Origin: Zygnema cylindricum
Lineage: Eukaryota; Streptophyta; Zygnematophyceae; Zygnematales; Zygnemataceae
Assembly: GCA_037447655.1 (NCBI GenBank)
Contig: JBBHKE010003558.1
Coordinates: 30,045 to 94,044, forward strand
Length of the DNA: 64,000 bases
Direction: 5' to 3'
This document shows, one piece after another, positions 15,695 through 42,959 of the stretch (positions are counted from its first letter, which is position 1; each line of letters begins with the position of its first letter). Both the position numbers and the translations under genes were made by a program. Below the pieces are notes generated by a model. That model was not told the origin of the DNA. It was given only the letters and a program-made list of their open reading frames with translations, and made no database searches.

Positions 15695-15696
15695 GT

Positions 15697-15889
15697 TGTA
15701 GTGCATGAGGGGATAAGCAAGAGCGAACATGCATCCCAACCAGCAAAGTCATGCTCCAGACATATATACAAACGAAAATGAATGAGAAGGGAAAAATGTT
15801 TATACAACATGCAAAAGAATAAAGGTGAAGATGACCAAAGGAATAAAAGGGAAGAATACTCCCCTAGCGTGAAGTGACCCCTATAATTC
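15697..15889 (-). repeat. G1 terminal repeat segment B1
   Basis: It begins TGTAGTGCATGAGGGG two bases (GT) after the end of A2 and ends ATAATTC at a pyrimidine tract (polypurine on the element strand). It is homologous to B2. Confidence 0.85.
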
Positions 15890-15898
15890 CCCCTCCCA
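15889..15898 (-). other. G1 polypurine tract
   Basis: CCCCCTCCC on the plus strand (GGGAGGGGG in element sense) sits between the end of pol and B1. This is the expected place for second-strand priming, but upstream of B1 rather than A2. Confidence 0.55.
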
Positions 15899-15903
15899 GC
15901 TCC

Positions 15904-16131
15904 TTAGCCTACGGTGGAGCTGGTCAAAACCGTTGAGAGCTCACGACAGCCATGGCAAAACCAATGGCCAGCTGGCACAGTTGTCAATGGAGGAACTAAA
16001 CACTCCATGTGGAACCCTTGGTTACAATGGTCGCACAAGAGCATGGAAGTCTCGCCGTCTGCTCGCATGCAAATTGTACATTCCGTCGCCTCCGTGATCG
16101 GCATTCTCATCGGATCCATATCATGTGACAA
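15904..16131 (-). pseudogene. G1 pol C-terminal PHD finger
   Basis: This segment follows the integrase in the same reading frame after one TGA at 16171-16173. It contains a complete C4-H-C3 array: CTIC, then CDHC, then FHMEC, then WFCHGC, with the spacing of a PHD finger, and a conserved Trp before the last Cys pair. PHD fingers bind histone H3 tails. At the C terminus of a Gypsy integrase it occupies the position where chromoviruses carry a chromodomain, so a role in directing integration to chromatin is a reasonable inference. The TGA separating it could derive from CGA. A DDE integrase tail without this domain would end near 16171. Confidence 0.8.
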
Positions 16132-16170
16132 ATCCAGTAAGTAACAAGGTGCACAGTTCTTCGAATGCTC

Positions 16171-17808: not shown

Positions 17809-17856
17809 CTCTCTTTGCGTTAAAATAGCCGCAATGTGTGGCTTCCCGAAATCGGT

Positions 17857-19308: not shown

Positions 19309-19329
19309 GGGGTGATTCTGTGCATAACG

Positions 19330-20330: not shown

Positions 20331-20379
20331 AAGGAAACCCGAACGATCGGTTGCAACCGTCGGTATAGGAGGGATGGTC

Positions 20380-21000
20380 GTTAATGGAATAGATAATGTT
20401 GAATTATAAAAATTTTCAAAGATGTGAGAATTAATCTAGAAACCCGGTTCCGCAAAGAGCTCAGGTAAGGGAGAACTATCCGGTATAATTTCTTTGGCCG
20501 AAAGAGAGTGAAGAATTTCCTCCCCAACGGAGTTCCCCAAAAATGCAGGAAGAGCCGTGGCCGAGTGAGCCATAGTGGGCAAAGGTCGGCGGGCTGAAAT
20601 GAGAGGAAGGAAGATTTTGCGCTCCGGAAAGTGTGTCGGTCGGTAAGAAAATGTTTGGTCGTGCATGTCCACACCACCATTAATTCGGAATATAACATCT
20701 TGACCCACCAAACACTCATAGTCGTCACATTTAGTGACTAATGGTCTGACACCAATTTCAACGTACTTTTTTTTAGTTCTTGTCTCAAACCGAAAGATGA
20801 GCGGGTCCTTTGTGATTCCGAGGACCGGCTCCGTGGTCCCAGCCGAAGTAAGTGGTTGCCTGAAGCTTGTCTGCTGTCAGACCAAGCTTGAGCGCAAATC
20901 CGTATCCGAGGATCACGGTTTGGCCCCGGTGTCCATGAGAGAAAGAGTGGGGTGAACACCGTTCACTAAGAATGATCCCCGTGAGTTATCAAGGAAACTG
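20380..21000 (-). pseudogene. G1 aspartic protease region
   Basis: The motif FLVNGVHPTLSLMDTGAKP ends in a DTG active site at about 20920-20930. A shifted frame continues GFALKLGL and then, at 20711-20436, the C-terminal DVIFRINGGVDMHDQTF followed by FSYRPTHFPER. It would cleave the polyprotein. At least two frameshifts and several stops occur between DTG and the methyltransferase. Confidence 0.65.
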
Positions 21001-22671
21001 ATATGGGGATTGAGATTACGACGCTCCTCCGTAGTAACGGGTTGAACCGCTGAGAGACTAGGATTTAACAGCAGAGCCCTCAAAGCGACTGCCGCTGCGA
21101 CCTCATCAACGAGGGGAACGGCTTTCGGTACATCCTCCAACATCGCTGAAAGAATACTTAATCGCTCCTTTACCCGATGATCCTCATGAATAGTGCCATC
21201 CAATATGGTCAGTGCCTCTGCTACGATGGTATGAGCTGTGTCCGGTAGGGAAGGCAGAGGCTCTTCGGCAAATGAGAGTGGGAGACGAGAATTTTGTAAT
21301 TTGCCCACTCGGTTATGGTCTGCTGAGCCTTTTTCAAATGTGGCCACCCGTTGTTTGACGTGGGAATCCCGAAGGGTTCGCCCGGCCAACAACGGCATGT
21401 GGACAACGGTCCTGGCCATCCCATTAAACTGGGGTTTCATTTCCGCCATGAAAGCTGCAAATTGCTCTTTCATTATGGCTGCCATTGTGGCTTGAAGCTT
21501 GGCCTTCTCTCTCTCTACGAGAGATCTTAGGGGGAGCTTCCTCTTTCCCGGTCTCCTTAGGCGGAGTGACTGGTTTCGCGAAACGGGCCGGAATTCCACC
21601 ATTCTTTATCTGATTTTGATAGGTGAAATTAGGGTCCTTGATGTGGCACCGATGGACATAATGTCCCGTTTGGTGGCAATGAGTGCAAGTGGCCGCCTTG
21701 TTAGGACACATGCGAGCATTGTGCCCGGTTTTTCCACATCGAAAACACATTCGGTTTCCGGGACCAGCAGGTGGAGTTCCCATGGCTGGCGTCTTCTAGG
21801 GCCTATTGGGAGGCCATGGGTTTTTAGGTGGAGGAGGAGATGGATTAACCGGTTCTCTGTGAGGAGCTTTGGAACGCTCATGGGCGTCCCACCACGATGT
21901 CTGCATCTCATACTCTACGGCGTATTGAGCGGCTTGCTCAAAGGTGAATTTCAGTCCATACATCTGGCTGAGGTGGTTTTGGATAAACCTCTTTGATGGA
22001 CCTGGAAACTGTCGGACAAATTTCAGGACAGCCTCCGCATCGGACATGAGGTCCGGTAATGCCTCTCGCAAAGTTTCTATCCGAGCTTGCAAGGCAGGAG
22101 CAGTTTCACCTGGCTTACGCTCGAAGTTCATCAACTCTTTGATCTGATCCGGATTTTGCATCCGGTACTCCTCTAGGAGGATGTCAAACATGACAGAGAG
22201 AGGGTCACGTAAAGGAATGGTTCCCCCCGCTCTAGTTGGGACCGCTGCTCGGGCAGCCACTGCATACTGACGAGGAACTTCGGAGATAGATGGATACAAC
22301 TCGTCTCCATTAGCATCTAATAGCGCCGGTCTCGCGGCCTGATATGGGATATCCACCTGACCGACGACTTCCGGTAACCCCGCAAAGGGAGCCACGTACT
22401 CTGTTATCGCAAGAACATCCTTGTACTTGCGAGTGTAGAGAGTGAGGGCCGTACCACGGAGGTATCGACCAAGAAGGGAAAAGGCGACACGGAGGTCAAA
22501 CCTATCCTGATATCTAAAGGCTAGATCTCGCATTTCCGTGTCGTATAACATCCGGAAATGCGATAAGGACATAGTATCTTTTAACCCGGAAAAGCAAAAG
22601 TGCATCTTACCCATGGATCCCTCTGAAGAGGAAGCCATGTCGTAAGGAGGCGGATGTGTCGGTTGTGCCAA
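20913..22671 (-). pseudogene. G1 gag
   Basis: The start ATG at 22669-22671 gives MAQPTHPPPYDMASSSEG and a capsid domain with FALMF-like segments DLRVAFSLLGRYLRGTAL and FERKPGETAPALQARIETL. A TAG at about 21796 interrupts it. Two CCHC knuckles follow in the same frame (CFRCGKTGHNARMC and CTHCHQTGHYVHRC). Then a frame change at about 21550 leads into a coiled-coil-like stretch with LVEREKAKLQATMAAIMKEQ. The protein packages element RNA. Two knuckles are typical of Gypsy gag. Confidence 0.8.
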
Positions 22672-24399
22672 AGCTGGGCTGGTAGGGAACTAACGAGTGT
22701 GAGGAGTTGGAAAGGTTTCCTCCGGGAAGTCTTCTTCGGTCCCCTCTAGGTATGACCTAGATGAAACCGAGGATAATGAGCACGTGGATGTCAGACCACA
22801 CCGTAGTGACGGCGATCTGCGATCAACAATCGGATCGGACGTGGTCAACGATTCGGGAAAATCCGAATGATCTAACTGTTGAGAACGGTAAAATGTACTG
22901 CCTCGGGTAGAACCGGATTGGTAAGGAAGGTCATCTCAATCCATGGGCATAAACAAAGGGAGAACCCTTGACTATGATAATGAAATGTTTCGCACGACCT
23001 AACCGAGATGTAACACATGTGAAACCAATCCACTCGTCCAGCCAACACACTCAGTCACTATCAAGACCCGATGGTCGTATCTAGCAAGAAGTCGGTTTAC
23101 CACAACCTCTACCCTGCAAACAGTTGGCAAGGCCAAAGGGCCAGATCTATAAAAACAAGAAAATTGTTATCCAAGCACCCTTGGGTGCAGATCTACAGCA
23201 ACACAGACGGGAAAAGGTCTACATTGTGCCACCCACGGCAAGATCTAGCAAGAAATCCCACTCTAGATAGTCACACGAAAATCCAAGGCCACTTGGGGCC
23301 AGATAGCATGTAGAGAAAGCAAGAAAATGCAAGTGTTCAATAAGAAAGGTTCACGATAGAACCAATCCACACCGCTCCCCTACACGAGTGTCCACACTAA
23401 ATCGGAACGCTCCTGCACGCGGAAGGAATCGACTACTTACAGACACCTTTAGTACTTTGGTGAGCACTAAGGGTGAACTTGACTTGTTCGAAGCAAGTCG
23501 GGTTTTGCAGAGCTCCCTGGGATGAAATTTGCTCCACGAAACTCCCTCCGAGCGTTCTCCGAAATAACCCTCCGCGAGACCTGTTCCGTACCGTGAAGAT
23601 GTACGCCGGGGAATGTTAGGGAACCAATGGAAGGGAAAAAATAACGTAGGGTGGAAGGAAAATAACAAATAAGAAAAACAAATACGATAGATAAAAAAAG
23701 GGTGTTAGAATAAAGTCGGAGGCCGCTCAAACTCCAGATATACATCCAAACTTGTGACCACAATAATCCAAAGCCAGCAGCCAAACTTAATTCCACTTGA
23801 AAAATCCTAATTCCAAAGCCAAACCCTAATTCCAGAGGGCCAAAACTCAAAATCTGCAGCCAAGGACTCAAAATCTGCAGCCAAGGAATAGAAGGATACC
23901 GACCTAAGAACTAGAAACAAAAGGAATAAACCCTAAATCTCCTGCAACCCTAATTCTGCAGCCAAAACCCTAATTCTGCCTCCGAACCCTAATTCTGCAG
24001 ATTAACCCTAATTTTGCAGATTAACCCTAAATTTGATACAAAATTTAGGTTCAACACGAAAGCCAAGAAATATAGTGGCAACAGAATAAGAGACAAAGAT
24101 TGAAAGAAAGAAATAGCCGAAAACAAAAACAAAATGTTTTTTTTTTATATAAAATAAAATTTATATTTTTAATAGATATTTTTATTTTTATTTTCTTTTG
24201 GACAAGAATACTCAGCCAAAAGGTAGCCACTAGGCTCTTGGGTCTTCAATATATTCTTTACAAGAGTTATCTTATAAGAAAGCAACGAAGCAAGATAAAT
24301 AATTCCAACCAAAAACAAGGAAAACTCCAAATTCGGCCAAATTTACCCTTCCATTCCCAACCGAAAATACAAACAACACAAATACAAACACCCAAACCG
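22672..24399 (-). other. G1 leader region
   Basis: About 1.7 kb lies between A1 and the gag start with no convincing coding sequence; several frames are open for about 100 codons but look like nothing known. It has repeated CCCTAATTCTGCAG-type blocks at about 23940-24035 and AT-rich DNA at 24100-24250. No TGG-starting tRNA primer site is visible next to A1. Confidence 0.6.
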
Positions 24400-25335
24400 T
24401 TCAGCTGTCCGTGTGAGGGGCAGCCGGATCCGGATGCTTCTCCACACGAACTCCAATCCACCACTTCCCAAAAATGACACAAGTTGGAGGGAAACCTTTC
24501 GGACTTGGCTTTGAGCCGCATGGATTAAAAGCGTGGGCAGAATTACAAGGGAGAATGTATGTAAACTATCTAGCCTCTACAGCTAGCTAGCAAAAGAAAA
24601 GAAGAAACTTGAGCAATCGGTGAGAGAGAGAGTAAGAGAAAAGCTCCGCCGCCAAGAGAAAATTCTTGTCCAAAAGCTAGAAATTCTAAGTCTGAAAATA
24701 GACTAAGTATTAGCTACGCTACGCCTACGCAAACCCTAACCTAAGTCTAGGCTAGTTCACATGAACGAACTACTTAAGATGTTTGGCCAATTGGCGACCA
24801 ACATCGTCTGCCTTACGCCTAACAAAATCCACCATCCGAGGGTAAAAACCCTCCCTAACTACATGTACGCGCGAACCTACATGGGTTCGCGACTTAAATA
24901 TATAATGGTACATCGAAGCGTCGATGGTACTCCCGGATATCGCGTTGCATCGCCAAACGATACTTCACGTATGTATTCCAAAATTGTGTACCTGCGCACG
25001 AAAACGAAACAATAGTACGCACGCAATTAGTACATATACAAATAGACGTGTACGCGAATCGCGTACACGTCAAAGATAAAAGAACCAATGTGCCTTTGCA
25101 CGTGCGGACATAAATCATGCACGCGCGCAAAAATAATTGTGCGTGCGTGTATGATTTCGTTCGAGCGTGTCAAATATCGCGTGCGCGTGCACAACATCAT
25201 GCGTGAGTGCGAAATATCGTGCACGCATGCAAAATATCGCTCGCGCGTGCACTATATCATGCGTGCATGCGCAATATATCGTGCGCGCATGCAAAATATC
25301 GTGCATGCCCGCGACCGACACCATGCGGCATGACA
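24400..25335 (-). repeat. G1 terminal repeat segment A1
   Basis: This is the 5' terminal repeat of the element, ending CGGCATGACA at the TTCC target duplication. It lacks any B segment on its inner side, which opens directly into the leader. A likely TATA box (TATATATTTAAG in element sense) is at about 24895-24906. Confidence 0.85.
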
Positions 25336-26844: not shown

Positions 26845-27136
26845 TGTCGAGCGTGCCTGATAAACGTGAGGGAAAGGCCCACGGCCCGAAGTCGTCAGCA
26901 TTGGAGTCTTGCAAATAAACCCCGAATGCGAATGCTTCACAAAATGATAATCATGCCCGGTGCTGCCCACATCCCTCCTATAGATATGCAGGAAAATGGG
27001 AGAGAGATACTTAGAAAGGGAATATGGATGAGGGCAAGGGGAAGGTGAAAGTTATCCCCTCCCCCTTCTCCCCCCCCCCCCCCTCTGGCTGGGGGAAGGG
27101 ATTTGGGCCTCTATAATTGGGCTGATATCCCAATTT
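26845..27136 (-). repeat. G2 terminal repeat segment B2
   Basis: About 292 bp starting TGTCGAGCGTGCCTG. It is repeated as B1 at 28315-28606 with differences that are largely C/T and G/A. It contains a long C tract at about 27065-27083. Confidence 0.85.
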
Positions 27137-28312
27137 GCTATGTCAACGGGAAGTCTATCGCACTTGTTCCCTCAAAACCAGCTGTCGTGATCTAAGGGGT
27201 TTCAGTTTACTCCGGAACAGTAACTCCAAAGCAAAGAGAACTCCAGATGAAGACACAAATGCACTACCACGTAGATATATATATAAATAAATATGATTAG
27301 TTTTCCAGATTTATCAATATCACCTTGCCCAAAAAAAAAGAATAAAAGATAGAAAATGTGAAATGTAGCTAAGCAAGCTTAACATACCCCAGCAATCAAC
27401 GATGACAATTAGAAAAAGGTGACCCCTCTCCCGATAGTATCGTCAAAAGCTATGGTACTCGTGCAACCTTCGGTGTCCGCAGCTCGGAACCTACCAGACT
27501 CTTCTCGGTTCTAAACAGCAAAAATGTCCAAAATCTCCCAAAAGCAAGATAGTGCCAACTATCCGCCTGGACTGTGATTTCCACAAAAGACAGATCCAAA
27601 ACCAAGATGGTAATAGAGTCGAAAAAACACAAAGATTCTCCAAAAGAAAGTTTGTTGGAATTTTTCAGGGTTGTATCATGAGACAGTACTGAAAAGCAAC
27701 CTGTCTCATTCGATCCCAAGTGCCTTATTCATCAAAGTTTGTCAAATTGCAGGTCCAAAAGTCAAAGCTACGCTATTAACGAATGAGAGGCAAGCAAGTG
27801 TAATTGAACTAACACAAGACAAAATAATCCGTACTACACTAGGGGCAATTTTTTTTGCTCCGGAGTGCGGCTAAATCCGCGGCCGGAAGTAATTATTCGG
27901 TCCACTATTATATAACAAAGTCCTGAAAAGGACACCAACTTGCCATACTTTGACCTAATGTAATTAATGGACAAAATGTCAGCTGAGTTTGAACTAAATT
28001 CCTACTGATGGCTACCAGCATAACCTTAATGCAAATCCGGAAAATGACGTGGCAATCCACAATGTACCCCCCACTGGGGTTGGTTGCAAATGGTCTCGGT
28101 AACGAAATTGCAATCTTTGAGACGCTAGCACTTTGTCGGTCGGCCTCCGTTAGGCGCCAAATAAATTGCATTCCGCTCAGTTTAGGAAAAACAAGGATCT
28201 CGTCCGGCTTGGTGCACTCACTCCTCCGTACTTTGAAGACCGTACATGGTAAAAAAAACCCGAAAATCATTGGTGATATAAAGGTATGCCTGAAAAGCAC
28301 ATGAGCTTGACA
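27137..28312 (-). repeat. G2 terminal repeat segment A2
   Basis: About 1176 bp, homologous to A1 (41789-42959). It ends GAGCTTGACA on the plus strand. It lies between B2 and B1. Confidence 0.85.
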
Positions 28313-28314
28313 GC

Positions 28315-28606
28315 TGTCAAGTGTGCCTGATTAACGTGAGGGAAGGGCCCACAGCCCGAAGTGGTTGGCATTAGAGTCTTGCAAATAAACCCCGAATGTG
28401 AATTTTTCCCAAAATGATGATCATGCCCAGTGTTGCCCACATCCCTCCATAGATATGCATGCAAAATGGGAGAGATGCTTGGACAGGGAATAGGGATGAG
28501 GGTAAGGGGAAGGCAAAAGTTATCCCCTCCCTCTTCCTCCCCCCCCCCTGGCCGGGGGAAGGTATTTGGGTCTTTGTAATCGGGCTGATATTCCAATTTC
28601 CCCCCC
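28315..28606 (-). repeat. G2 terminal repeat segment B1
   Basis: It begins TGTCAAGTGTGCCTG two bases (GC) after A2 and ends CCAATTT at the pyrimidine tract CCCCCCCTCTT (28607-28617), the polypurine tract in element sense. Confidence 0.85.
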
Positions 28607-28617
28607 TCTTAGTCAAC

Positions 28618-29720
28618 CGTGAATAAGTTATAAAAACAATTACCCGCTCCATTCGCAGTTCCCACAGAACCGGATGCTGGAGGGTAGAGGGTGTGGCTCC
28701 TAAGAGGAGGGTATACAAGCTGAATGCCAACACTGACCACTTTGATTGCAGACGAATATGTCGTGCAACTGGGAGGGCTGATTGCAAGCTGATGAACAAA
28801 AAGGGGGATCGGCAAAGTAAGTTAAGTGGAAAGTGGGTTCATCTTCCAATCCTTGAAGATGGCAGGGGGCCACATTGATCTGATTCTCTTTAATTTGTCG
28901 ACCATCCTTTCCCTCCAATGTAAGAACCCCTTTGTTGGAAACCTCAACCACTTTCAAAATTACTCTCCCGGCAGAAATATCCAGCATGTCCTTCTTCTGT
29001 TGCATCCGATATACAAAGTCCCCCGGCATAAATCGTCGATGCCGAGGCACATAATTCTCGCTCCGGCGTTGAGAATACCACAACTGATCTCGGTGTTGAG
29101 CCGCCTGCAAATTGCCCATGGCGAGAGGCATCTCTCGGTGGAATATCTTGGCTCCTTCGGCGATCAGTTTTTTTACTGTCCCCTTGTCATCCATCTCCGA
29201 GAGGACCACCGCTTGGGTCAATACAGTTCCGCGCAAGATGGGATGCCGTCCAAATATAATGAAATAAGGGCTATAGGAGTGGAGAGAAGCATGCCTGCTC
29301 AATCTGTAACCCATAGCAATCCAAGGCACTTTTCTGTTCCACTCCCCCAAATCTTCTTCAACTGCATATTTTCGTAGTGATTGCTTCACTTTCTATACGC
29401 ACCTTTCGGCCAAACCGTCGGCTTGAGGGTGGTCACGACTGGTCAGCCGATGGTCGACTAGGCATTTTTCGAAGAGGTTGGAAAATTCTTCAGCATATTC
29501 GGAGCCTTGGTCGGTTAGAACTTCCGCAGGCGCTACGAATTTGGCTAAAACCCTTTGCAAAAATGCATCTGCAATTGCCATGGACTCCTTCCGAGTCAAC
29601 ACCACAAACTGGATCTACTTGGAAAAATGTTGTATCATGACCAGCACGAAATGGTTCTCGCGCTTGCTGGTTGGAAGAGGTCCTAAAAGATCCAACGACC
29701 ACCGATAAAACATCCCCCGG
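28618..29720 (-). pseudogene. G2 integrase with degenerate C-terminal PHD finger
   Basis: The core begins WSLDLLGPLPTS near 29700, then LTDQGSEYAEEF and HPQADGLAERCV (29605-29393), giving the D-D-E positions. The next open stretch, 29389-28700, carries FGRHPILRG, MPLAMGNLQAAQHRD and the FMPGDFVYRMQQKK barrel region. It ends in a Cys/His segment: CSSAC, CNQPSQLHD, CNQSGQC, WHSAC. This matches the first two thirds of a PHD finger; the final Trp and Cys pair is decayed or in another frame. The domain order equals G1. Stops at 29391 and about 29608 and a frame change break it. Confidence 0.75.
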
Positions 29721-29779
29721 ATAGGAAGCAAATAAAGCTCAGTCCCGCCCTTTTTGTCAAAAGGTGCCTTAACTCGATG

Positions 29780-30920
29780 GAGATTGGAAATCAGAGTTTC
29801 TCAGTTAGAGGGGGGAGGAACCACTTTCCTTGTGCCGTCTGACCATTTCCGAAGGAGAACGCCTCTTGCTCAATCATAGGCGCCATCAGGGTCTGTACTC
29901 GGGATAATTGATTTCCAGTTAAGTGGGGAAGAGGCGACCCCTGTTTGATAGATTGGAGAGCATCAAGGTCGTTCCAGATGTCCTTCCGTCCGGCCCCTAT
30001 GGGCGCTTGCCCCTCCACGTCGGCCGAGAAAGTTGACAGTTCCCCCCCTGATTGGGGAAGCGAGATGAAAGGGGAGGATGCTCGAATGATTACCAGACTA
30101 ATCTCAGGGTCCTCATCATGCCGAGCCCTGGTATAATCCATGGTGGAGGGATCAGGATTTCGACTAAGTCCGTCGGCATTCCCATGGATTTCCCCTTCCC
30201 TATGAACAATGTTGAAATCATATTCCTGCATTATAAGAACCCATTCAGGCGAGTTTGCCGGTTAACTTACTATTTTCCATGATCCATTTCAGGGGTTGGT
30301 GATCCGTAATCAAGGTGAAATGGACTCCGTATAAATAAGGCCAGAAATGTTGGATGGCCCAATCCGCCGCGAGTTACTCTCCGTGGTAACTGCTATAATT
30401 CCCCTCTGCCTTGTTGTTGCTCCGGCTGGCGTAGGCCACCACATATTCAGCTCCGACATCATCCACTTGAGCCAGAACCGCTCCCAATCCAAACCTACAA
30501 TAATCAGTAGAAAGGAGGAAAGGTCTTTGGTGATCAGGCATCTGGAGCACGGGGTGCTGTTTCAAAGCATCCTTCAAGAACTGGGAGGAGATCTGTTGTT
30601 CTTCGGCCTTGTGCCACTCTTGGTCTTTCCGCAATAGCTGGTTAAGGGGCTGGACGTGACTACTGAACTCTGGGATAAACCGCCGATAGTAATTGGCCAG
30701 ACCCAGAAAGGTGCGAAGGGCCGAGATGTCCTGTGGTGGGGGAAGGGCGTCAAGGGCTGCCACCTTGACCATGTGGGGACCCACAGTCGCGGGAGTCAGC
30801 TCATGTCCGAGGTAAATGATTTTCTGTACCCCCCTAAAATGCCTTTGCCCGGGTGACATTTCAAACACGCTGCTTGGAGTGCCTGGAGAACGATCTGGAT
30901 ATGCCCAGGTGTTCCTCAAA
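29780..30920 (-). pseudogene. G2 reverse transcriptase C-terminal part and RNase H
   Basis: The stretch 30919-30374 carries the RT thumb or connection motifs LGHELTPATVGPHMV, LRTFLGLANYYRRFI and the RNase H start STDYCRFGLGAVLAQ, then AYASRSNNKAEGNYSSYHGE. After a stop and frame change, 30231-29791 continues with EYDFNIVHREGEIHGNADGL. It degrades the RNA strand of the hybrid. It has at least two breaks. Confidence 0.8.
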
Positions 30921-31560
30921 AGTCTTTGATATTATAATAACATCATCATTATAGCACCGGGCTCAATCGATTCCTCGGAGCGCTTCGTCCATTGTCTGTT
31001 GGAATTTTGCCGGTGTATTCTTAACCTCGAAGGGCATGTAAATCCATTCATAAAGTTTGGAACTAGCCCAAAATGCAGTTCTCTCCTAATGCTTCGGTTC
31101 CATGGCAATCAGGTGGAAACCATTCTTCATGTCCAGAGTGGAATATATAGTGGCGCCAGCAAGAGAGTCGAATATCTCTTCCGGAGTCAGCATCCGATAC
31201 CGGTCAGAGATGGTGGTCGTGTTCACCATGTGATAATCTCCGCACATCCGGAAATCTACAATCTTCTCGGACGAGTCTTTCTTTGGAGGGAGAACTGTCG
31301 GGGAAGCAAACCCATGAAGTCCGGTACTTTCCTGAACGAATCTGGCTTCCACCAAAGTCTGGACTTTAGCCGTGATGAATTCCTTTTCCTTGAAACTGAG
31401 AGGATACTGCTTCTGCCAAACAGTAGTCGTCTTGTCGATCAAATGGATTCAGAAAGGTGTTCCTTTGTAAATACCGTCATATGTTTCTGACCATGAGAAC
31501 ACCTGCTTGTTTTCGTCCAATAGCTCGAGAGCTGCGCCTTCTGCTGAGGATCCAATTTCT
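30921..31560 (-). pseudogene. G2 reverse transcriptase N-terminal part
   Basis: Linker LDENKQVFSWSETYDGIYKG near 31530-31470 leads into RT: KEFITAKVQTLVEARFV, GFASPTVLPPKKDSSEK, FRMCGDYHMVN, IYSTLDMKNGFHLIAM (open at 31442-31086). After a stop, AFWASSKLYEWIYMPFE and the active-site motif CYNDDVII appear; the usual residue before DD is Ile, Val or Leu, so Asn is a change. Frames shift between 31080 and 30920. Confidence 0.8.
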
Positions 31561-31809
31561 CCCCTAGGGTCCAATCCATTTTCCCATGCTCTACAACAGC
31601 CCAAGCCTCTGGCGGTCTACCCAGAAGTTAATGTCGAATTCCAATCCTAGCGGTGGATCTGCCTCTACCCATCCGGCTAGGACGCTGCTGCAGACAACTT
31701 CCGCTAAGTTGTCGCCATCTGAGCCACCGCCCCTCCCAAATGAGAAAACCTGCGGTGGTGAAATGTGAATTTGTCTTCTTTCTCTCCCCCCCTCAAGCTG
31801 CAAAGTTGC

Positions 31810-33014
31810 CTACATCGCTAACAAATGAGGAGCTTGAACGTAAACAACCATGGATTTCGGGGACTTGAGACTAGAAAAGCCGAGTGTATGCTTCAGTACC
31901 CATGTGATCGAATTCAAGTCCATACTCTGTCCAATTAGGTTGCACCTATAAAGTTCTGAGATACTTGGTGCTGCTGTGTTCCCTTTATGAAATCCCATCG
32001 CTTCTTCCCGTTCTGCAATCGTCGCTGTTGTCCAGATTCCTGCCATACTGTAAGAAATCATTCCCACTGCTCCTTTCTGATATGCGTGACTATGAGGGAA
32101 AGAAACCAAAGTCGTGAGTGCTCTCCGTGGTAAATCTGGTTTGTTGCACCGAAAGAAAAGAGAGCGGTCTGGTCGCGTCATAGGGGTGGCCATCGTGCCT
32201 TCCCCAAGTATTTGCTGCACCAAATTCTGAGGGTCGGGAATTTGCTTGTCTAACAGTCGTCCGAGTACTGGAAGCGGGATCATATTGGTCCAATATGCCT
32301 TTACTCTATGTGCAGGGGATCCCATCTGTGCGGCGTCGAAAACCAAGGGAGCTCATAAATTCCGGGTTACGTGATTCTAGTTGTCCGCAACCTGTTTTCT
32401 TTTATCATCTCTGGGTTGACATTTTCCAGAATGTACCCCACCGGTGTGTCCTGATGTTGATCAAGGCACGTGATTATTTCGATCATCCGGTGAAATGTTC
32501 CACTTCTGCGGTCTTGATGCCCTTTTCCTTGTCTCGCTAGGGAGTACCCTTGACAAGGCCAGCCTTCTAACGCCAAATCCACTCTTCCCAAACTGGCTAG
32601 ATGAGGCGCAAGGATGTTGTCTATATTTTGGGGAAGACTTCAGTGAGCTGTGGAAATAGCTTTCACTGAAAGCTGTTGAGGATATAGGTGATGAAGTTGG
32701 TGGAGGCGGTGTTCGCTGACAGCTCGCGCCTCGGGTGAAATTTCCATAGCTGCGTATGACTCGACCAGATATCCTGTTTTCACAACCGCTTCCAAATCGC
32801 AACTAATTCCCGAAAATAGAGATAAAATACGTAGTCCATAATCGGGGACTGCCAATGACACTACATGTCGATTGAACTCCTCGTTACCAAACTTAGGTTT
32901 GGAAGCATTAGACAGTTGTGTAGAAACGGCTTCCTTCAATGTTAAGGCTGAAAATGCCTTATCCACTCCCCGCCGAAGTTTTGCTACCTGGCACAATCTA
33001 TTCTTATATTCCAC
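31810..33014 (-). pseudogene. G2 DNA (cytosine-5) methyltransferase domain, nearly intact
   Basis: In 33014-32640 motif I reads LRILSLFSGISCDLEAVVKTG, followed by YAAMEISPEARAVSEHRL. After one TGA (32640-32642) the same frame gives RVDLALEGWPCQGYSLARQGKG (motif IV with the catalytic Pro-Cys at about 32553-32558) and VGYILENV (motif VI). One frame shift near 32350 leads to 32346-31810 with HRVKAYWTN (motif VIII), ATIAEREEAMGFHKGNT (motif IX region) and RCNLIGQSMDLNSITWVL (motif X). All core motifs of a DNA C5-methyltransferase are present. It lies between protease and RT as in G1. Only one stop and one shift separate it from an open frame. The closest methyltransferase subfamily cannot be decided here. 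Confidence 0.88.
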
Positions 33015-33790
33015 TTCCCACCGCTTGGAAATTGGGAATTGCTAGATTTCTTTGGCGATATCTATAGAACTGCCAAACAGTTCCGTCGGAGATGATGTAG
33101 TGTACACCGAGTAGCAACCAGACACTGGGACATTTGTCTTCCCCCGGTTCCATAAATCCAAAGGAACCACCACTAGGGTTCCTTCCGGATTTTAGGGGTC
33201 CCGAACGGTACATTGTTCCTTCCACACGTTAAAACTCACATTGAGCAGGTCCAAGTGGCCATTCCCAGCAGAATTTCGAATTGAGTCCCTTCCACCACCA
33301 AGAAGGGAAGCTCAATTTTCACCCGTTGGCCTCCATCATCAGAAAACTCGATTTCCATGGCCTTGATTATTCCATGGATTGGTTGATTGCCGCTACTTAC
33401 GATGCTTAAGCAGATATTGCTTGGGCAAAATTCAGGCCGAGGTTCCTCGGGCATTTTTTTGCAAAGCAGAGGTGGTAATGAGGTTGGGGAGAGCTGCGAT
33501 GTCGACCACAGCGTCCTCGTATCCCCCGTAACCGTTGAGCGTCAAGTTCCCGGTCCGGTTCAGTATAATAGCCACTAATAAGGCTTTGTAGTCCCTATCC
33601 ACTATAGGGGTTTTAGGATCGGTGGACAAAAATAATGCGATTGGCGGATTGGTCATGTCTACCCCCCTCTTTCCAGAGTGGATCTCCTCTCCCAATGCCT
33701 GAATAAGGATTTCTTTAGACAGGTAATGGGAGGATGCTAGAGTCTTCACGTGTGTGAGGGCATAGGGCATGAGGTGTCGCACTAGCATGA
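33015..33790 (-). pseudogene. G2 aspartic protease region and linker
   Basis: 33788-33432 includes LTLNGYGGYEDAVVDIAALPN, which aligns with a retropepsin flap and active-site strand but lacks a clear D-T/S-G. 33454-33236 includes IELPFLVVEGTQFEILLGMATW, the typical C-terminal ILLG motif. A segment at 33225-33015 (DLWNRGKTNVPVSG in one frame) links to the methyltransferase. Frames change at least twice. Protease identity rests on position and the ILLG motif. Confidence 0.6.
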
Positions 33791-33955
33791 CAACCAGTTT
33801 CGGAATGGGAGTGTGGCTTTCGGTGAAGATGGGGATGAGTTCGGTTCTTGTAGATCTTGATCTTTTCCTTCTATCTCACTTTCGGAGCCTGAATCTTGGA
33901 TTGGAGGTGTTTGGGGAGTGTTATTTTCCGGGCGTTTTGCCATATATCTCTCAAA

Positions 33956-36900
33956 TTAGTCTCGATTGTCCTTTTTCTCTCGTTCCATTGACTCTTTTTC
34001 TCCCTGCTGTTTCTCGTTTTGGTAATTTTTGAAACCGGGAGGCAATTTAGAATTGGGAGGAAGAGATGTGGGTTGATTGGGTTTGATTCCTAGGCCGATG
34101 TCGCTATTCAGCATTACTCCCCGGAGAGTAAATGACAGAGGCCCTGTAGCTTTCCCGTTGTGATCCCGCTGACCCATTTTCTGCCTGTCATGTATTTGCA
34201 TCGAGGTGGAACTGCGCAGTTGGCGGCGGCTGTCTCCCACCCCAACATTCCAAGCTCCGAACAGGAAGGTTCGGGCATGGTGGGCATTTGGGGGTTCCAA
34301 ATCCCTGCCCAATAAGTCGTCATCCTTGGCATTCGCGGTGCCTTGAAGCTCAAGCTCTGCGAGCTTGTGCAACAACTCATGTTTCTGCTTTTGGAGTCGT
34401 TGTGCTGTTGTGAGAGGAGCAGGTCGGGAAGAAGATCCTAGGCAGAGGGCATCCAACTCTACAGCCATTACGGCCAGCTGCTGACTTTGTTGCTGTATGA
34501 TGTTCTCTGGCGTAAGCCTGGCCGGACCAGCCGGGGCTAGATCAGATCTCTCCGCCGTGGACATAAGTTAGCGCCCCCAAGGGTAAAGTAGTTAGAGGGG
34601 GAGAGGGTTAAGGGTCGTTTCTCCTTCTCCAGTAAACAAAGCAAATTGCATCATTTCCTTGGGTATTTTATTTTTCCAGAAACATTACCCTTTCTTATGC
34701 CCCAAAAATCCACAAGCTTTGCACTTGGCGCCCTCAGTGGTATATTTACTCCGAATTTCGTTGGAGATTTAAGCGTCATCAAACTTTGGAAGTTTGATTT
34801 GCCGCAACTGAGATTGGGACATCTTAAAGGTTTCGCTCCGTGGAGTTGGACAGTAAGTTTCCTAGGTTACGGGGGTCCTGTCCTCTCCCCTCCCTCCCTT
34901 GAGCTTTTCTAGTTGTATAGAAGTCCTTTTCTGCACTTTTTTTCTCCCATTCCTTAAGTTTCAAACCCAGCTCCGGTTTAAGTTTCCTGGTGTAGAGCTT
35001 CCACCCATGACCCGGTTGTTGACAATTCATGCAATTATAGAGAAATACTCGCTCATCTGCTCCCATAGCTGGTTCTGACCCGCTGTCAGCCACTTGCTTC
35101 CCTTTAAGCTTCCGAAAAAGCTTGAAGTTCAGCCTTTTCCTCTTCATTCAAGGAGGTTTTCTCGGCGAATCCTGCAAAATTTGCTCACGCTTTGCCGGTC
35201 ACAGCCTTCTCCCTTGCCTCACTGTGGACGAAATGGTCATATAATTTCATCGCCACCTAAGAGATTTCTATGGCAAAGATGTTGATTTCTTGAATTGCCT
35301 CTCCGGCTATCCAGTTATCTAGAGCAGTTTGTCCTGTCGGTCTAAATGAATTACGGACAACGATAAAGTATTTAGTTGCCATTGCCGGAAGGTCAATAGT
35401 GGACAGTTTCGTTTTTTTGACAAAGGCTTGAGAGTCCTTTGAAGAGAGTCTGGGGAGTCTCGTTCTTCAAGCATCGGAATTCCGTGAAATCCTTGATTGC
35501 TGACTCGTTCCTCTTTGTGTAGAGGAGTCTCCAGATGTTTAGCACAGTGGTACAAGGGTTAGGATTAGCAACCATGCGAGTTGCTGCCTAGGCTGCCTGA
35601 ATGGCTTGTAGCTGGTTAACATAGGCTCTTCCTTGTACCTGCAGTTTCATGTCCTGTGTGAAGGTAGCGATTATAGGGGTTGCAGCCGTTGCCGCTAAGT
35701 CAACCTCCGCTTGCAAGAGTGCCGCATCAAGGACCGAATCCGAGATCTTGATCTTGGAGCCATCAAAAGAGGTTGACGCTCCTTGTAATCTTCCAACGCC
35801 CCTCCAAATAGGTTGTTGACCATCATGGGGAAGAGGGTTGTCCCGAAGTCATCCAAAATGGCTCCTCCTCGGTACTTATTGATTTCGGCTTGTGTGAAAG
35901 ATTTCCATAACAACTCGAAATCCGAAAATGCGATCCCCGAGCTATCTCCTGTACAGATCCGGATATCCCCTATTTCCTTTTCTTCCTTTCCAGGGTTGGT
36001 GAAATAGAAGAGGAAGGCCCGGTGGGGCTGAAAAACTGATCCGGCGAGATGACTCCCGTATCCTCTTCCTCGGGACCGGAACCGTGTCCTCCTCCGGTAG
36101 AAGGTGTTGCCCTGAGAGGTGGGGATCCCCTTCCCACAAAGGAAGTACCAGCGCCTGAAAATATGGTGGGAGGAAGAATGTTCCCTACTACTCCTTTTTA
36201 TCTAGGAGAGTGTTGTTCCTCCCTAAGAACCAGCTCCACCGATGGGATGTGGAGGTGAGGTCGGTTCAAAAAAGATCTTTGGGGAATGGGTGGCGACGGA
36301 GATGGAAACAAAGAGTGCTCCGGCCCGGTTGGATAAGGCGTTTGTTTCCAGGTTCGCCTCCTAGAGGTCTCCAGAGGTGAAGTTTCGGAAGTGGTGGAAC
36401 GGGAACGCCTGTGAGGAGGTGAGTAAGCGGGGACGTTGTGTTTGTAAGGTAAAATAGGCAGCTCCGAAGACCCCCGGATGGCTAGAGCGAAAGAAACGAA
36501 TGGTGAAGGGCAGTCCCAGGGCTTTGTTGTAGGACCTGGGGAGTGAGAGGAAGGAGGAGGAGGAGAAGATGGGGGATCTGGAGATGCTCTCAAAGGTGGT
36601 GAAGGGGGTGTTGACGACCTCAAGGGGATGTGAATCCTCTCGTCCGGTCGTAACTCCACCAAAGCCTCCACTGCCGAAGACACCTCCACCGAGACAAAGG
36701 TTGGCTTTTCCCGGGGAACACCAATAGACTTGGTAGGTAAATCTGCACCCAATCCCTTTTTGTTAGGTCTTGTTATTTCCCCCCCTTCCGGTTCAAGAGG
36801 AGGCTCTCGGCTAGGCTCAGAGGAAAGAACGTTAGGCTGTGTGCTTGCGAGAGGAAAAGTTTCTGGAGCGGGTGCTTCGGCATGCGAAACGATCACAGGT

Positions 36901-37677
36901 GTAGGAGGGGTCTGCCCGCTGAGAATCCAACTTGTCCTATGTCTAGCTTCTCAAATAAGCATCAATTCCTGTTCCCATACCTTTCTCCTTTCTATCTCCA
37001 AAGCCTTCCAATCTACGGTGGCAGGTCCGCCCCCGCCGTAGCCTGTCCCTTGGATTTTAGAACCTCCACTAGCTCTTTGGCCTTTTCGAACACTTTTGTG
37101 AGATCCGCTATCCCCACCCCCGGAATTTCGAGATCATTAGGTCTGGGTCGCCACCACCCCTCAGACAAATCTTCTGGTCCCGTATCCGGAACCTCTGGAT
37201 CGGTCGGTTTGGATCGCCAAAGCCCTTCGGCAGGGCGGACACGAGTTGCTGTAGGAGCAGGTTTCTCGGTTAAGACTGACACAATAGTGGGGGACATCTC
37301 CTCCTTGCGAAGAGGAGCGAATCTCTGCTTGCTGTCACGGTGGTCAAACCTGTTTCCCCTCTATGGGTCTCGTGCTTCCCTCTCAATACCCCCTTCTCCT
37401 CTACGAGGTCGCGAAGAGGTATGCCCCCGGGAGGGTCTGTTGGCTGCGGTGTTCTGAGAGGAAGATGGGGGAGGGCGAGAATAAGGAGCTATCTTAGACC
37501 GGTCTTGCATTGACTCTGAAGAGCTGCTCTTCGAAAAACTGCTCAAAATCTCCACCACCCCTCCCATGGGATAACCACTCTGACTCGATATGTTTGAGCC
37601 ACTCTCTATACCTATTCCTTCTTCACCTTCAGCTTATGGAGGTCGTGCAGGGCAATGAGTTCTTTACGACCTGGGCG
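33956..37677 (-). pseudogene. G2 gag, main part
   Basis: In coding order: the join to the N-terminal piece across element F, a Pro/Ser-rich segment (37567-36198) with SSTPPSPPLRASPDPPSS, a capsid-like segment (36139-35319) with EINKYRGGAILDDFGTT and FKGLSSLCQKNE, and a CCHC knuckle CMNCQQPGHGWKLY whose last Cys is Tyr (35147-34824). Last comes a coiled-coil stretch with LQKQKHELLHKLAELELQG (34564-33956). It is longer than the gag of G1 and more decayed. Assignment as gag rests on position, the knuckle and composition. Confidence 0.6.
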
Positions 37678-37682
37678 ACGTG

Positions 37683-38988
37683 TGTTGTTCTTTAGTCTAA
37701 AATAGACCGCAGAAGCGACCCAAACTATCATGCAAAAAGCTAAGCAAAAATAGGTCGACGAACAATCAGTTGAAATGCATCCTCCATTTAACATACAACA
37801 ACATTTAGGGTTTCATGGAATAATCAACATAAATAAACATTATGACAACATCTAAGGTTTGATGGAATAATCGACATAAACAAACCCTAGGACAAATGCA
37901 TAAACAATGCATATCAGACATATATAAAAACATAAATAAATAATAACACACAAATGCATCACACATAAACAAGAGTATAATCAAAGTATAATCATTATAT
38001 CATTCAAAGTGCATGACCTAATCGGCAACCCTAAAATACTACATCTTCGGTCCCCACTTTACTAACCAGCATTGATTAAAGTTCTAATGAAGCTCAAACC
38101 TATATATACACTTGTGAGCTGTTAACAAATCACTAAGTGTCAAAATAACCAATGTAAATTACGTAACTGTCATTAAATCAAACTAATCGTAAGCGTACAC
38201 CTGAAAGTCAAGCAATCGTAAGCGTACACTTGTCTGCAAATGCGACACATAAATTAAAGTGTCGAAACCCTAATTAACCACTTAAATATAAATGTCATAA
38301 TCAGCACTAATTTAATAATACAAATAAGACAAAGCATTGTTGTTCCAAATATTTTCAAGTACACGCAATCTCATAGAATCGTATGCTGAGTCATGCTGAG
38401 TCATGCTGAGTCACTCAGCGAAACTCCTTGATTTTCGTCAAAGAATCCGGGACGTCCAAAATAAACATCGTGTGATTGACGCGATTTCGCGTCACCACTA
38501 CTTGAAAAAATAACGGCGGCCTATATCCGCCGTCCGTCACTCTTAATCGGCACCCTTGATGTCGCGCCGCGTGGTCATAAAAATCCACTTGTCGAAACCT
38601 CGTCAAACCATCCGAAATTGTCCGTACCGCAATTTTGTTCCTCGTCATAAATGCGCCTGCCAAAAATAAGTACACCTGTCCCCAAAAAGATTCTATGTAC
38701 CGGCGGCGTCCTTTTTATATATCCCACGTGTCGCATTATGAACTTTACGTGCGACGTACCATTTTATCTTCGTCGATTATCTCACGTCGGATTGCTTCGC
38801 GATCCGCCGTCCATTTCCTCTCACATTTCGCGCCACTCAATTACTTCATTAATTTACGTGTACATTTAATTCCCCAATCCATAAATTCTTTCGAACCTCC
38901 ACAATATATCGCGTAAATGCGTACGCACGAAACATCGCGTACGCACGAAACGCTCCGTACGCACGAAACTAAGTTTTCAAAAACAACA
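37683..38988 (-). repeat. Element F 3' LTR
   Basis: 1306 bp. It contains three tandem ATGCTGAGTC units at about 38381-38414 and three GTACGCACGAAAC units at about 38920-38970. It is identical to the 5' LTR except for three positions near 37769, 37838 and 37840. Confidence 0.9.
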
Positions 38989-39942
38989 CTCCCCCGAAAA
39001 ATTAGTCTCGTGCATCCATGGCGCCACGTCATCAGCTGTCACCAATGTTACCAGCTGTCACACCTGCTTTCAACTGCCTTCTCCATCTTAATCCGCCATA
39101 TTCCTCCAACAAAATTTTCCCACTTGTTCCACCATCGCTTCCGCTGCCTCCACATACCATCCAGATTTCATAATACATAATATATATATTTTTCATTTTC
39201 CGATTACAACAAAATTTTATCTTTTCTCAACAATATCTAAATCTGAATCTACTTCTCACAATTCTGTCACAAATCAACTAAGAATTAAAACCAAACGATC
39301 ACACTAATAATATATCCCAACTCAAAATTTATACCTCAACCATATCAAATCTAGATTTAAAAAAAAAAAAAAAAAAAATTCTTTTCTTTTCATTTAATAA
39401 TCCGATCCCAAAATTTCCCATTAAAAATACACTTAACAAATAGTATTTTCCCAAAAATTCTAATAATATCACAATCTACATTACAAATCCAATTTTCAAC
39501 AATCATCGATCCACAAAATTTGGATCTCTCCAAATGCCACAACTCCACCTTTCGGATCTCTCCCCCAAACGTCGAAACTCCTCCTTCCACATCTCTCCAC
39601 TAAATGTCAAATCTCCACTAATGTCAAAACTTCGTATTCCACATTTCGAAATGCTTCATCAAAAATAAACATGTATTTTCCAAAAATAAAATATCATTTC
39701 TCAAAATAAATCATTTTCATTGAGGGTAGACATTTCGGCACTGTCACTAAGTTAACCCTTGGGGCGATGCAAGATTAAACTCGGCACATACCAACACTAT
39801 GATAAGGCCGATCTCATGGGTACACAGACACCATTACTGCAATACAACCAGCAAGGACAATATTAACCCGCTACAATGCGTGTGACAAAAACCTACATCG
39901 ACTTAACCTAACATATGATAGATGGGTTGTGGGCCCATAACC
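38989..39942 (-). other. Element F internal region
   Basis: AT-rich, with an A/T homopolymer at about 39358-39378. The longest frame (39590-39390, minus) resembles nothing. The primer-binding site GGTTATGGGCCCACA in element sense is at 39928-39942. Confidence 0.75.
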
Positions 39943-41248
39943 TGTTGTTCTTTAGTCTAAAATAGACCGCAGAAGCGACCCAAACTATCATGCAAAAAGC
40001 TAAGCAAAAATAGGTCGACGAACAATCATTTGAAATGCATCCTCCATTTAACATACAACAACATTTAGGGTTTCATGGAATAATCAACATAAATAAACCC
40101 TATGACAACATCTAAGGTTTGATGGAATAATCGACATAAACAAACCCTAGGACAAATGCATAAACAATGCATATCAGACATATATAAAAACATAAATAAA
40201 TAATAACACACAAATGCATCACACATAAACAAGAGTATAATCAAAGTATAATCATTATATCATTCAAAGTGCATGACCTAATCGGCAACCCTAAAATACT
40301 ACATCTTCGGTCCCCACTTTACTAACCAGCATTGATTAAAGTTCTAATGAAGCTCAAACCTATATATACACTTGTGAGCTGTTAACAAATCACTAAGTGT
40401 CAAAATAACCAATGTAAATTACGTAACTGTCATTAAATCAAACTAATCGTAAGCGTACACCTGAAAGTCAAGCAATCGTAAGCGTACACTTGTCTGCAAA
40501 TGCGACACATAAATTAAAGTGTCGAAACCCTAATTAACCACTTAAATATAAATGTCATAATCAGCACTAATTTAATAATACAAATAAGACAAAGCATTGT
40601 TGTTCCAAATATTTTCAAGTACACGCAATCTCATAGAATCGTATGCTGAGTCATGCTGAGTCATGCTGAGTCACTCAGCGAAACTCCTTGATTTTCGTCA
40701 AAGAATCCGGGACGTCCAAAATAAACATCGTGTGATTGACGCGATTTCGCGTCACCACTACTTGAAAAAATAACGGCGGCCTATATCCGCCGTCCGTCAC
40801 TCTTAATCGGCACCCTTGATGTCGCGCCGCGTGGTCATAAAAATCCACTTGTCGAAACCTCGTCAAACCATCCGAAATTGTCCGTACCGCAATTTTGTTC
40901 CTCGTCATAAATGCGCCTGCCAAAAATAAGTACACCTGTCCCCAAAAAGATTCTATGTACCGGCGGCGTCCTTTTTATATATCCCACGTGTCGCATTATG
41001 AACTTTACGTGCGACGTACCATTTTATCTTCGTCGATTATCTCACGTCGGATTGCTTCGCGATCCGCCGTCCATTTCCTCTCACATTTCGCGCCACTCAA
41101 TTACTTCATTAATTTACGTGTACATTTAATTCCCCAATCCATAAATTCTTTCGAACCTCCACAATATATCGCGTAAATGCGTACGCACGAAACATCGCGT
41201 ACGCACGAAACGCTCCGTACGCACGAAACTAAGTTTTCAAAAACAACA
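39943..41248 (-). repeat. Element F 5' LTR
   Basis: 1306 bp, three differences from the other LTR, followed by the ACGTG duplication. Confidence 0.9.
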
Positions 41249-41788
41249 ACGTGGATCTGTCAAAACTGCGGGTTCAATATGGATCTCGCCCGGGGGAATT
41301 TTGGATCTGGTGTTAAGCCCGACCTCCAGAAGAGGACCCAAACGAGGCTCCCTATACGCCTGCCTTTTTGGCCGGGCCCTGGGAGACACTCGGTTCCTCT
41401 CTTGGGCCTGAGCTCGGGCTTCCTTCTTTTCCTCAGCATAGGCCATGGCGGCCTCCGCCAAGGAGGGGTAATGTTCGGGATTCAGACTTGGAGGAAAAGA
41501 AGGAGAAGAAGCACTAGCTAGTTCCTTGGTCGGAGAATCAAAGGCAGACTCCATGAGTACAGAATCCTCTGATAGCTGAGACTTTTTCTCTTGAACGGCC
41601 CTCTCTTGCCGACCCTGCTCTCCTGATCCATTATCCGGAGTCTCTCCTCCCACCATGATGACAGATGTAACGAGAGAAATAGTATTGAATGTAAATAGAG
41701 CTCACTTCCAAAAAAGAGAGCTTCACAAGTTAAAGCTCCTATCCCCTCTAATTCGAGCACACAGGTGTGGATTTTCTGTACTGTGTTT
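41249..41788 (-). pseudogene. G2 gag N-terminal piece and 5' untranslated segment
   Basis: A start ATG at 41654-41656 opens a frame to element F: MVGGETPDNGSGEQGRQ, then NPEHYPSLAEAAMAYAEEK and an Arg/Ala-rich region. It runs directly into the gag sequence left of element F when F and one ACGTG are ignored (TDPR followed by RPGRKELIALHDL). The 130 bp between this ATG and A1 hold no visible tRNA primer site. Confidence 0.7.
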
Positions 41789-42959
41789 TGTCTATGGGAA
41801 GTCTATCGCACTTGTTCCCTCAAAACCCACTGTCCAGATCGAAGGGGTTTCAGTTTACTCCGGAAGAGTATCTCCAAAGCAAAGAGAACTCCAGATGAAG
41901 ACACAAATGCACTACCACGTTGATATATATAAATAAATATGATTGGCTTTCCAGATTTAACAATTTCACCTTGCCCCAGAAAAAAGAACAAAATATAGAA
42001 AATGTGAAATGTAGCTAAGCAAGCTTAGCATACCCCAGCAATCAACGATGACAATTAGAAAAAGGCGACCCCTCTCCCGATAGTATCGGCAAAAGGTATG
42101 GTACTCTTGCAACCTTCGGTGTCCGCAGCTCGGAACCGTCCAGACTCTTCTCGGTTCGAAACAACAAAAAAGTCCAAAATCACCCAAAAGGAAGATACTG
42201 CCAACTACCCGACTGGACTGTGATTTCCACAAAAGACAGATCCTAAACCAAGATGGCAATAGAGTCGAAACAACAAAAAGATTCTCCAAAAGAAGGTTTG
42301 TTGGAATTTTTCAGGGTTTTCTCAAGAGACTGTACTGAAAAGCAACCTGTCTCCTTCGACCCCAATTGCCTTATACATCAAAGTTTGTCAAATTACAGGT
42401 CCAAAAGTCAAAGCTACGCTATTAACCAATGAGTGGCAAGCAAGTGTAATTGAACTGACAGAAGACAAAATAATCCGTATTACACTCGGGGCAAAAAGTT
42501 CTGCTCCGGACTGCGGCTAAATCCGCGGTCGGAAGTAATTATTCGGTCCACTATTATAAGACAAAGTCCTGAAAATGACACTAACTTGCTAGACTTTGAC
42601 CTAACGTAATTAATGGACAAAAAGTCAGCTGAGACTGAACTAATTTCCTACTGACGGCTACAAGTATAATCTAAATGCAAATCAAGAAAGTTACGTGGCA
42701 ATCCACAATGTACCCCCCACGGGGGCTGGTGGCAAATGGTTCCCTATAAAAGAATTGCAATCTTTGAGACGGTATAACTTTGTCGTTCGGCCCCCGTTAG
42801 GCGCCAAATAAAGTGCGTTCCGCTCAATTTAGGAAAAAGAAGGATCTCGTCCTGCTTGGTGCACTCACTCCTACGTACTTTGAAGACCGTACAAGGTAAA
42901 AAGGGCCCGGAATATCTTGGTGATATAAAGGTATGCCTGAAAAGCACATGAGTTTGACA
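41789..42959 (-). repeat. G2 terminal repeat segment A1
   Basis: About 1171 bp, homologous to A2 (27137-28312), ending GAGTTTGACA at the CCAT duplication. No B segment is present on its inner side. Confidence 0.85.

Follow-up and report, generated by a model that had tools for sequence, protein, structure and literature searches.

DNMT3-like cytosine methyltransferase domains in the Pol region of two Gypsy retrotransposon families of Zygnema cylindricum

Two Gypsy retrotransposons, here called G1 and G2, lie in a 64,000-nucleotide stretch of the Zygnema cylindricum genome (the window; GenBank assembly GCA_037447655.1, contig JBBHKE010003558.1, positions 30,045 to 94,044 of the forward strand), and both carry a cytosine-5 DNA methyltransferase domain between protease and reverse transcriptase (RT). 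Both are broken, and each represents a different Gypsy family; the two families diverged deeply, their natural copies sharing 39-42% identity in the methyltransferase and 48-49% in the RT. We propose, with a probability of roughly 0.55, that in both families a DNMT3-like methyltransferase is a permanent part of Pol (protease - methyltransferase - RT - RNase H - integrase - PHD finger), and that it is made at the level of Pol, packaged and put to work methylating new complementary DNA (cDNA).

Results

The methyltransferase of G2 was recognized in an initial annotation, which listed the motifs LFSGI, WPCQG, ENV, HRVKAYWTN and EREEAMGF...RCNLIGQSMD. All are present in that order and, as a correction to the annotation, they lie on the minus strand, between 33041 and about 31840, in three stop-to-stop frames (33041-32640, 32639-32367 and 32352-31810). 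When the three translated pieces were compared with Pfam, the family assignment stood for the middle piece (32367-32639; DNA_methylase, E = 3.2e-7, 30.5 bits, cut-off 22), and neither outer piece matched a Pfam family. The domain as a whole (33041-31840) aligned by tblastn over its full length, in two frames, to an unbroken copy from the same genome at about 63% identity, which far exceeds chance. The G2 copy itself is broken, because it contains three in-frame stops and one frame change besides a family-wide UAG just before the domain; the single stop and single frame shift counted originally were too few.

The domain thus belongs to the C5 cytosine DNA methyltransferases (PF00145), scoring above the Pfam cut-off with motifs I, IV, VI, VIII and IX-X in order. 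By profile and by modelled fold it is nearest to DNMT3: its closest solved relatives are DNMT3A/B/C, the profile match is about 1e-19 for DNMT3 against 1e-5 for DNMT2, and the order of its motifs is unrearranged, unlike that of DRM. The DNMT3-like fold was predicted for a relative, P0001, rather than for G2 itself, in an AlphaFold model with a mean predicted local distance difference test score of 57.6 that is good for the methyltransferase part only.

Both the enzyme class and the Gypsy setting given in the initial annotation were borne out by Pfam scans and by the order of domains in tblastn, and the placement between protease and RT was recovered with the domains of the unbroken copy. The G2 pieces also matched G1 by tblastn at 20090-19351 (32-45% identity), again between protease and RT. 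The features of the two elements are as follows.

G2, all on the minus strand:
26845..42959, whole inserted Gypsy element, layout A1-coding-B1-A2-B2 (self-comparison; 4-bp target duplication ATGG on both sides)
41789..42959, repeat A1, 90.5% identical to A2
34661..41659, gag region in pieces 41659-41252, 37686-36834 and 36818-34661, split by a nested long terminal repeat (LTR) element (tblastn of natural copy)
33045..33809, protease region (tblastn of natural copy; DTGA motif in unbroken relative)
33042..33044, family-wide UAG stop immediately before the methyltransferase
31840..33041, cytosine-5 methyltransferase domain, broken copy (motifs, Pfam, tblastn)
30545..31526, reverse transcriptase (tblastn of natural copy)
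30142..30544, RNase H (Pfam and tblastn)
28856..29878, integrase (tblastn of natural copy)
28643..28810, PHD finger remnant at the Pol C terminus (45% identical to a natural-copy PHD end scoring 24.6 bits, cut-off 24)
28315..28599, repeat B1
27141..28312, repeat A2
26845..27136, repeat B2

G1, all on the minus strand:
14567..25335, second Gypsy element, same layout as G2 (target duplication GGAA)
24400..25335, repeat A1, 95.8% identical to A2
21655..22587, gag region (tblastn of natural copy)
20637..21014, protease region (tblastn of natural copy)
19339..20342, cytosine-5 methyltransferase domain, broken copy, motif IV WECQG (tblastn)
17887..18873, reverse transcriptase (tblastn and Pfam)
17491..17880, RNase H (tblastn and Pfam)
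16144..17274, integrase (tblastn and Pfam)
15937..16089, PHD finger (78% identical to a PHD end scoring 1.1e-11)
15697..15889, repeat B1
14758..15694, repeat A2
14567..14760, repeat B2

A separate gene inserted into one copy only is excluded, because G1 and G2 share the position of the domain and because RT lies downstream on the same strand in 38 of the 44 domain-bearing stretches among the 47 fetched from the genome (these 44 include neighbouring stretches of one copy and are not 44 separate copies). Among the remaining six, L011 and L032 stop short of the RT, and L002, L004, L044 and L046 have no RT match. A bacterial or viral contaminant was likewise rejected: 18 pattern matches in an IMG/VR scan and 70 in GTDB genomes included none that tblastn confirmed as a relative, and a search of plasmid DNA returned no matches.

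Both families are repeated through the genome. For the G2 family, 150 places were scored of 1340 first-look candidates, with 61-82% identity to a 180-residue G2 query besides the window itself, and for the G1 family 150 of 1145, with 68-96% identity to a 143-residue G1 query; both counts are lower bounds, and the unscored candidates are not all known matches. The degenerate pattern [AG]GWPCQG occurs exactly at 176 genome places and at none in a reversed control. Unbroken copies, for which the initial annotation had suggested a search, exist in both families. One of the G2 family has a Pol frame of 1520 amino acids and A repeats that are 97.8% identical, and one of the G1 family has a single frame of 2395 amino acids in which gag (two CCHC knuckles, identified by eye) is followed by protease (DTGA), methyltransferase, RT, RNase H, integrase and finally a PHD finger. 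The A repeats of this second copy are 100% identical over 931 bases, making it a very young insertion. The stretches fetched were the eight best matches (L001-L008, of which L001 is the window) and others picked for long open frames, so that they give no measure of how common unbroken copies are.

The catalytic residues are well conserved. Across the 45 rows of the methyltransferase tree, the catalytic Cys is kept in all, Glu in 44, and each of the two motif VIII Arg columns in 44. The proline of motif IV is replaced by glutamate in 9/45 rows and by serine in 1/45, with three changes between P and E on the tree. Pairwise NG86 ratios of nonsynonymous to synonymous substitution (dN/dS), calculated on natural unbroken frames with dS of 0.1-1.5 taken as usable and the pairs not being independent, show the domain to be under purifying selection in both families. 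The median for the methyltransferase was 0.242 in the G2 family (16/45 pairs usable; 25 saturated or undefined, 4 too close) and 0.158 in the G1 family (12/45 usable; 27 saturated or undefined, 6 too close); the corresponding values for RT were 0.093 (8/21 usable) and 0.036 (2/28 usable).

Copies of the G2 family have protease and methyltransferase-RT in one phase, with a single UAG between the two frames. Among 48 stretches, 26 are of the G2 type and 25 of these have a match to the domain start (L019 has none); TAG precedes the domain in all 25, and CAATTC comes next in 23. After the UAG the bases are conserved even at most third codon positions, and before it they are less conserved. A pattern for the site that left this codon unspecified matched 192 genome places (1 in the reversed control), and among the 100 listed, 92 have TAG, 5 TAA and 3 a sense codon, as judged by eye. 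This stop is absent from the one unbroken gag-pol frame of the G1 family. The simplest reading of the arrangement is that in the G2 family gag-protease would be produced in quantity, and the methyltransferase only within Pol.

At the other end of Pol, cut-out termini matched the PHD finger profile (PF00628) at 1.1e-11 (45 bits) in the G1 type and at 2.6e-5 (24.6 bits, cut-off 24) in the G2 type. In precomputed domain lists PF00628 is named in 8 of 36 protein relatives, all of them with the second of the two layouts described below (type II); one of this type, P0019, has a PHD score of 1.4e-9.

These 36 different relatives came from protein searches that gave 7, 21 and 11 matches, 3 of them shared. 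The source is jgi or ena for 32; the others are P0026 from Cymbomonas tetramitiformis, P0023 from EukProt, P0011 ('lgn') and P0027 ('ncbi'). In type I, which comprises G1, G2 and 7/36 relatives, the methyltransferase precedes the RT (both domains were located in 6 of the 7, and P0013 was placed by a protease preceding the domain). In type II, found in 14/36, it lies downstream of RT, between RNase H and the integrase (both domains were located in P0017, P0019, P0022, P0026, P0028 and P0033, and the other 8 were called from their Pfam lists and from where the domain lies). The layout calls thus cover 21 of the 36 relatives and leave out 15. The relative from Cymbomonas, a prasinophyte, is of type II. 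A single branch parts the two types in the methyltransferase tree (support 100/99; 45 rows, 15 of them without a layout call), and a single branch does so in the RT tree (support 99/98; 19 rows, 13 type I and 6 type II); both trees have long branches, P0025 and P0026 among them, and the RT tree was flagged for long branches that meet. Since the two trees split alike and the identities of methyltransferase and RT are correlated (Spearman 0.53, 136 non-independent pairs), it seems that within each type the domain has travelled with the RT. The two layouts could reflect either one capture and a later move or two captures from related sources, the RT tree being one of domain-bearing Gypsy elements only.

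With respect to element class, protease, RT, RNase H and integrase occur in the order of a Gypsy-type LTR retrotransposon, and the integrase has the integrase core domain (rve). In place of two full-length like terminal repeats, however, the elements have the split direct repeats of the DIRS type, in the layout A1-coding-B1-A2-B2. A DIRS-type tyrosine recombinase (PF00589) was absent among the matches of the scanned frames, which cover part of the element bases, and rve is present instead. A young relative elsewhere in the genome (C1344) has a split-repeat layout like that of G1 and G2 and the target duplication TTGG, so that 4-bp target duplications were found in three of the four elements with checked ends (G1, G2 and C1344). 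The fourth, C1374, has outer flanks that do not match each other and hence no target duplication; it is a copy with an extra repeat block, 3.7 kb lying between one of its B repeats and a second block of the form PHD-end-B-A-B (C1374:18500-38499, L009/L010, 13134-16845 of the joined stretch). The extra block represents either a rearrangement or the overlap of two insertions.

The termini of G2 are TGTC...GACA, and the element is a single insertion into a Copia element. Its flanks (42960-43766 and 26622-26694) match the Copia element at 45086-46121 in DNA, at 70-81% identity. Inspected by eye, they also hold a Copia RNase H motif split in two (KAKHM / MDIRLS), which is present in the Copia frame 45144-47357; G2 therefore jumped into the RNase H region of such an element.

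Several further observations were made in the window. The internal B1-A2 junction (28312-28315 in G2, and the same in L010 and L030) is GACAGCTGTC, a 10-bp palindrome equal to a junction of both element ends plus two additional bases; it is intact in G2, C1344 and C1374 and altered in G1. It may reflect an intermediate resembling a circle junction, which would explain the A-coding-B-A-B layout. The element nested in the gag region of G2 (37683-41248, minus strand) has 1306-bp LTRs that are 99.8% identical (41248-39943 and 38988-37683), an internal part of just 954 bp and the 5-bp target duplication CACGT; it is young and looks non-autonomous. Long Copia frames lie at 45144-49514 (minus strand; RVT_2, 3e-82) and 5545-10390 (plus strand; judged by eye), and an expansin frame at 59603-61357 (plus strand; Expansin_C, 4.5e-16), which is indicative of a streptophyte, starts within a long simple repeat.

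Discussion

The initial annotation suggested that such an element might methylate its own cDNA or alter the host methylome. The position of the methyltransferase within Pol suggests how it might serve the element. It would be made at the level of Pol, in the G2 family only through readthrough of the conserved UAG and in the G1 family as part of one long gag-pol frame, and would enter the particle along with RT and integrase. There it could methylate the new double-stranded cDNA of the element ahead of integration or while integration takes place, and the copy would then carry the mark on its arrival in the chromosome. At the end of the integrase, the PHD finger would read a histone tail and thereby bias the insertion site. 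Candidate advantages of the mark are that the element might pass as host DNA or that harm to the host might be damped. We infer methylation of the cDNA because the domain lies in Pol and because two retrotransposon DNMT3s of Symbiodinium methylate CG in yeast, as described in the main text of de Mendoza and colleagues (PMC5890265).

A number of observations weigh against this proposal. In the same yeast assay, no methylation was obtained with the Klebsormidium Gypsy enzyme, a result that its authors call inconclusive (PMC5890265). The methylation footprint between repeat pairs is weak, with C-to-T type changes at 38/522 CG, 22/404 CHG and 71/1508 CHH sites (CG versus CHH, p = 0.03), and the ratio of observed to expected CpG is 0.67-0.99 in the elements against 0.69 elsewhere in the window. 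Motif IV of the G1 family reads WECQG, and not the usual PCQ, in 18/19 rows, and the methyltransferase is less tightly constrained than the RT. The PHD finger of the G2 type is borderline, a longer frame (L025) scoring 18.6 bits and thus below the cut-off, and a full-length type I relative, P0008, had no PHD match in a Pfam scan. Finally, readthrough in tobacco mosaic virus requires the six bases CAR YYA after the UAG, according to one account (PMC2754532), and CAATTC matches these at only 5/6 positions.

There are a few other ways in which the domain could act. First, the enzyme might work in trans on host chromosomes, marking target regions or other copies, with the methylome rather than the cDNA as its substrate. 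Enzymes of the DNMT3 class methylate chromosomal CG, and a PHD finger at the end of the integrase suggests contact with chromatin; effects on the host methylome were also discussed by de Mendoza and colleagues (PMC5890265). We consider this unlikely, though it is the strongest of the alternatives, as a G2-family domain behind a UAG would probably be produced in low amounts and kept with Pol. Second, and with a lower probability again, the domain could have a role other than catalysis, for instance in holding on to cDNA or genomic RNA, and some lineages could dispense with catalysis. The substitutions at the motif IV proline and the weaker constraint relative to RT would fit such a role, but the near-invariant Cys, Glu and motif VIII Arg columns would not, and ECQ is itself retained in nearly all (18/19) of the G1-type rows. 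Third, the substrate could be RNA, either genomic RNA or a primer tRNA, as for DNMT2. Packaged Pol proteins would encounter RNA first, and RNA methylation has been proposed for SymbioLINE (PMC5890265); the profile, being so much closer to DNMT3 than to DNMT2, makes this improbable. Finally, that the domain is a passenger, a captured host gene now merely decaying, would suit the two broken copies of the window, but it is hardly credible given that the domain is under purifying selection, that unbroken copies exist, that one insertion is very young, its repeats being identical, and that two families about 40% identical have the domain in common.

The Z. cylindricum families resemble elements already known, from which they nonetheless differ. 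Unlike KnitGypsy-Dnmt3 of Klebsormidium nitens, they comprise two families about 40% identical with many copies, a PHD finger, a conserved UAG and an ECQ variant, in an assembly of 352.8 Mb; the genome of K. nitens is about 100 Mb. The likeness, drawn from the published description rather than from sequence, is as follows: a DNMT3-like domain lies in the Pol frame of an LTR Gypsy element, Ka/Ks is below 0.2 there and purifying selection is indicated here too, and both have A-coding-B-A-B split repeats, the legend of Fig. 4 giving a DIRS-element structure with Gypsy-typical domains (PMC5890265). None of the words PHD, readthrough and Cymbomonas is found in that paper's main text, figures apart. 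SymbioDIRS-Dnmt3 and SymbioLINE-Dnmt of Symbiodinium, described in the same text, are also retrotransposon-borne DNMTs, SymbioDIRS having two reported domain orders; they have a tyrosine recombinase or long interspersed nuclear element (LINE) architecture, whereas the elements studied here have a DDE integrase and 4-bp target duplications (3/4 checked) (PMC5890265). An orchid Ty3/Gypsy element with an N6-methyladenosine (m6A) RNA demethylase domain is comparable as a Gypsy element with an acquired nucleic-acid modification enzyme, the enzyme and the host being different (PMC9289625).

The precedent cited in the initial annotation is thus correct: DNMT3 in charophyte and dinoflagellate retrotransposons was published in 2018 (PMC5890265), and a 2025 survey of DNMTs repeats these groups in the passage concerned, naming LTR Copia and DIRS elements (PMC12344493). 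Among the titles and abstract openings listed in literature searches, which covered open papers and a minority of preprints, there was none on a PHD finger, UAG, ECQ motif or type II layout in such elements. What is new here, apparently, is the breadth, the two domain positions, the PHD finger, the UAG and the change from PCQ to ECQ, the kind of element being already known. Chromodomain Gypsy elements have a chromatin reader at the C terminus of the integrase, as G1 and G2 appear to do; here, however, the putative reader is a PHD finger and is joined by a DNA methyltransferase. Acquisition of Chromo domains is mentioned in the text on KnitGypsy-Dnmt3 (PMC5890265).

A wider picture, offered tentatively and at somewhat less than even odds, is that of an ancient and widespread Gypsy clade in which a DNMT3-like writer and a PHD histone reader are paired in Pol, so that new copies would be marked when made and placed by chromatin. 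The writer would occupy two places in Pol, each corresponding to one branch of both trees; its capture would be older than the split of the lineages found in this genome, in Cymbomonas and in the other relatives; and the ECQ families would be active without the motif IV proline. In the Cymbomonas genome, a scaffold with more than 10,000-fold coverage codes for a cytosine DNA methyltransferase and was called repeat-associated, no element being named in the passage that describes it (PMC5741210); the breadth of the relatives offers a possible explanation for this abundant scaffold.

Cytosine methylation is a standard weapon of the host against retrotransposons, and a methyltransferase that is carried by an element and maintained by selection raises the question of what a retrotransposon gains by marking DNA. 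With many copies, some of them young and unbroken, two diverged families and two active-site variants, this question is testable. Their breadth, as found here, points to a long-lived branch of Gypsy and not to isolated accidents.
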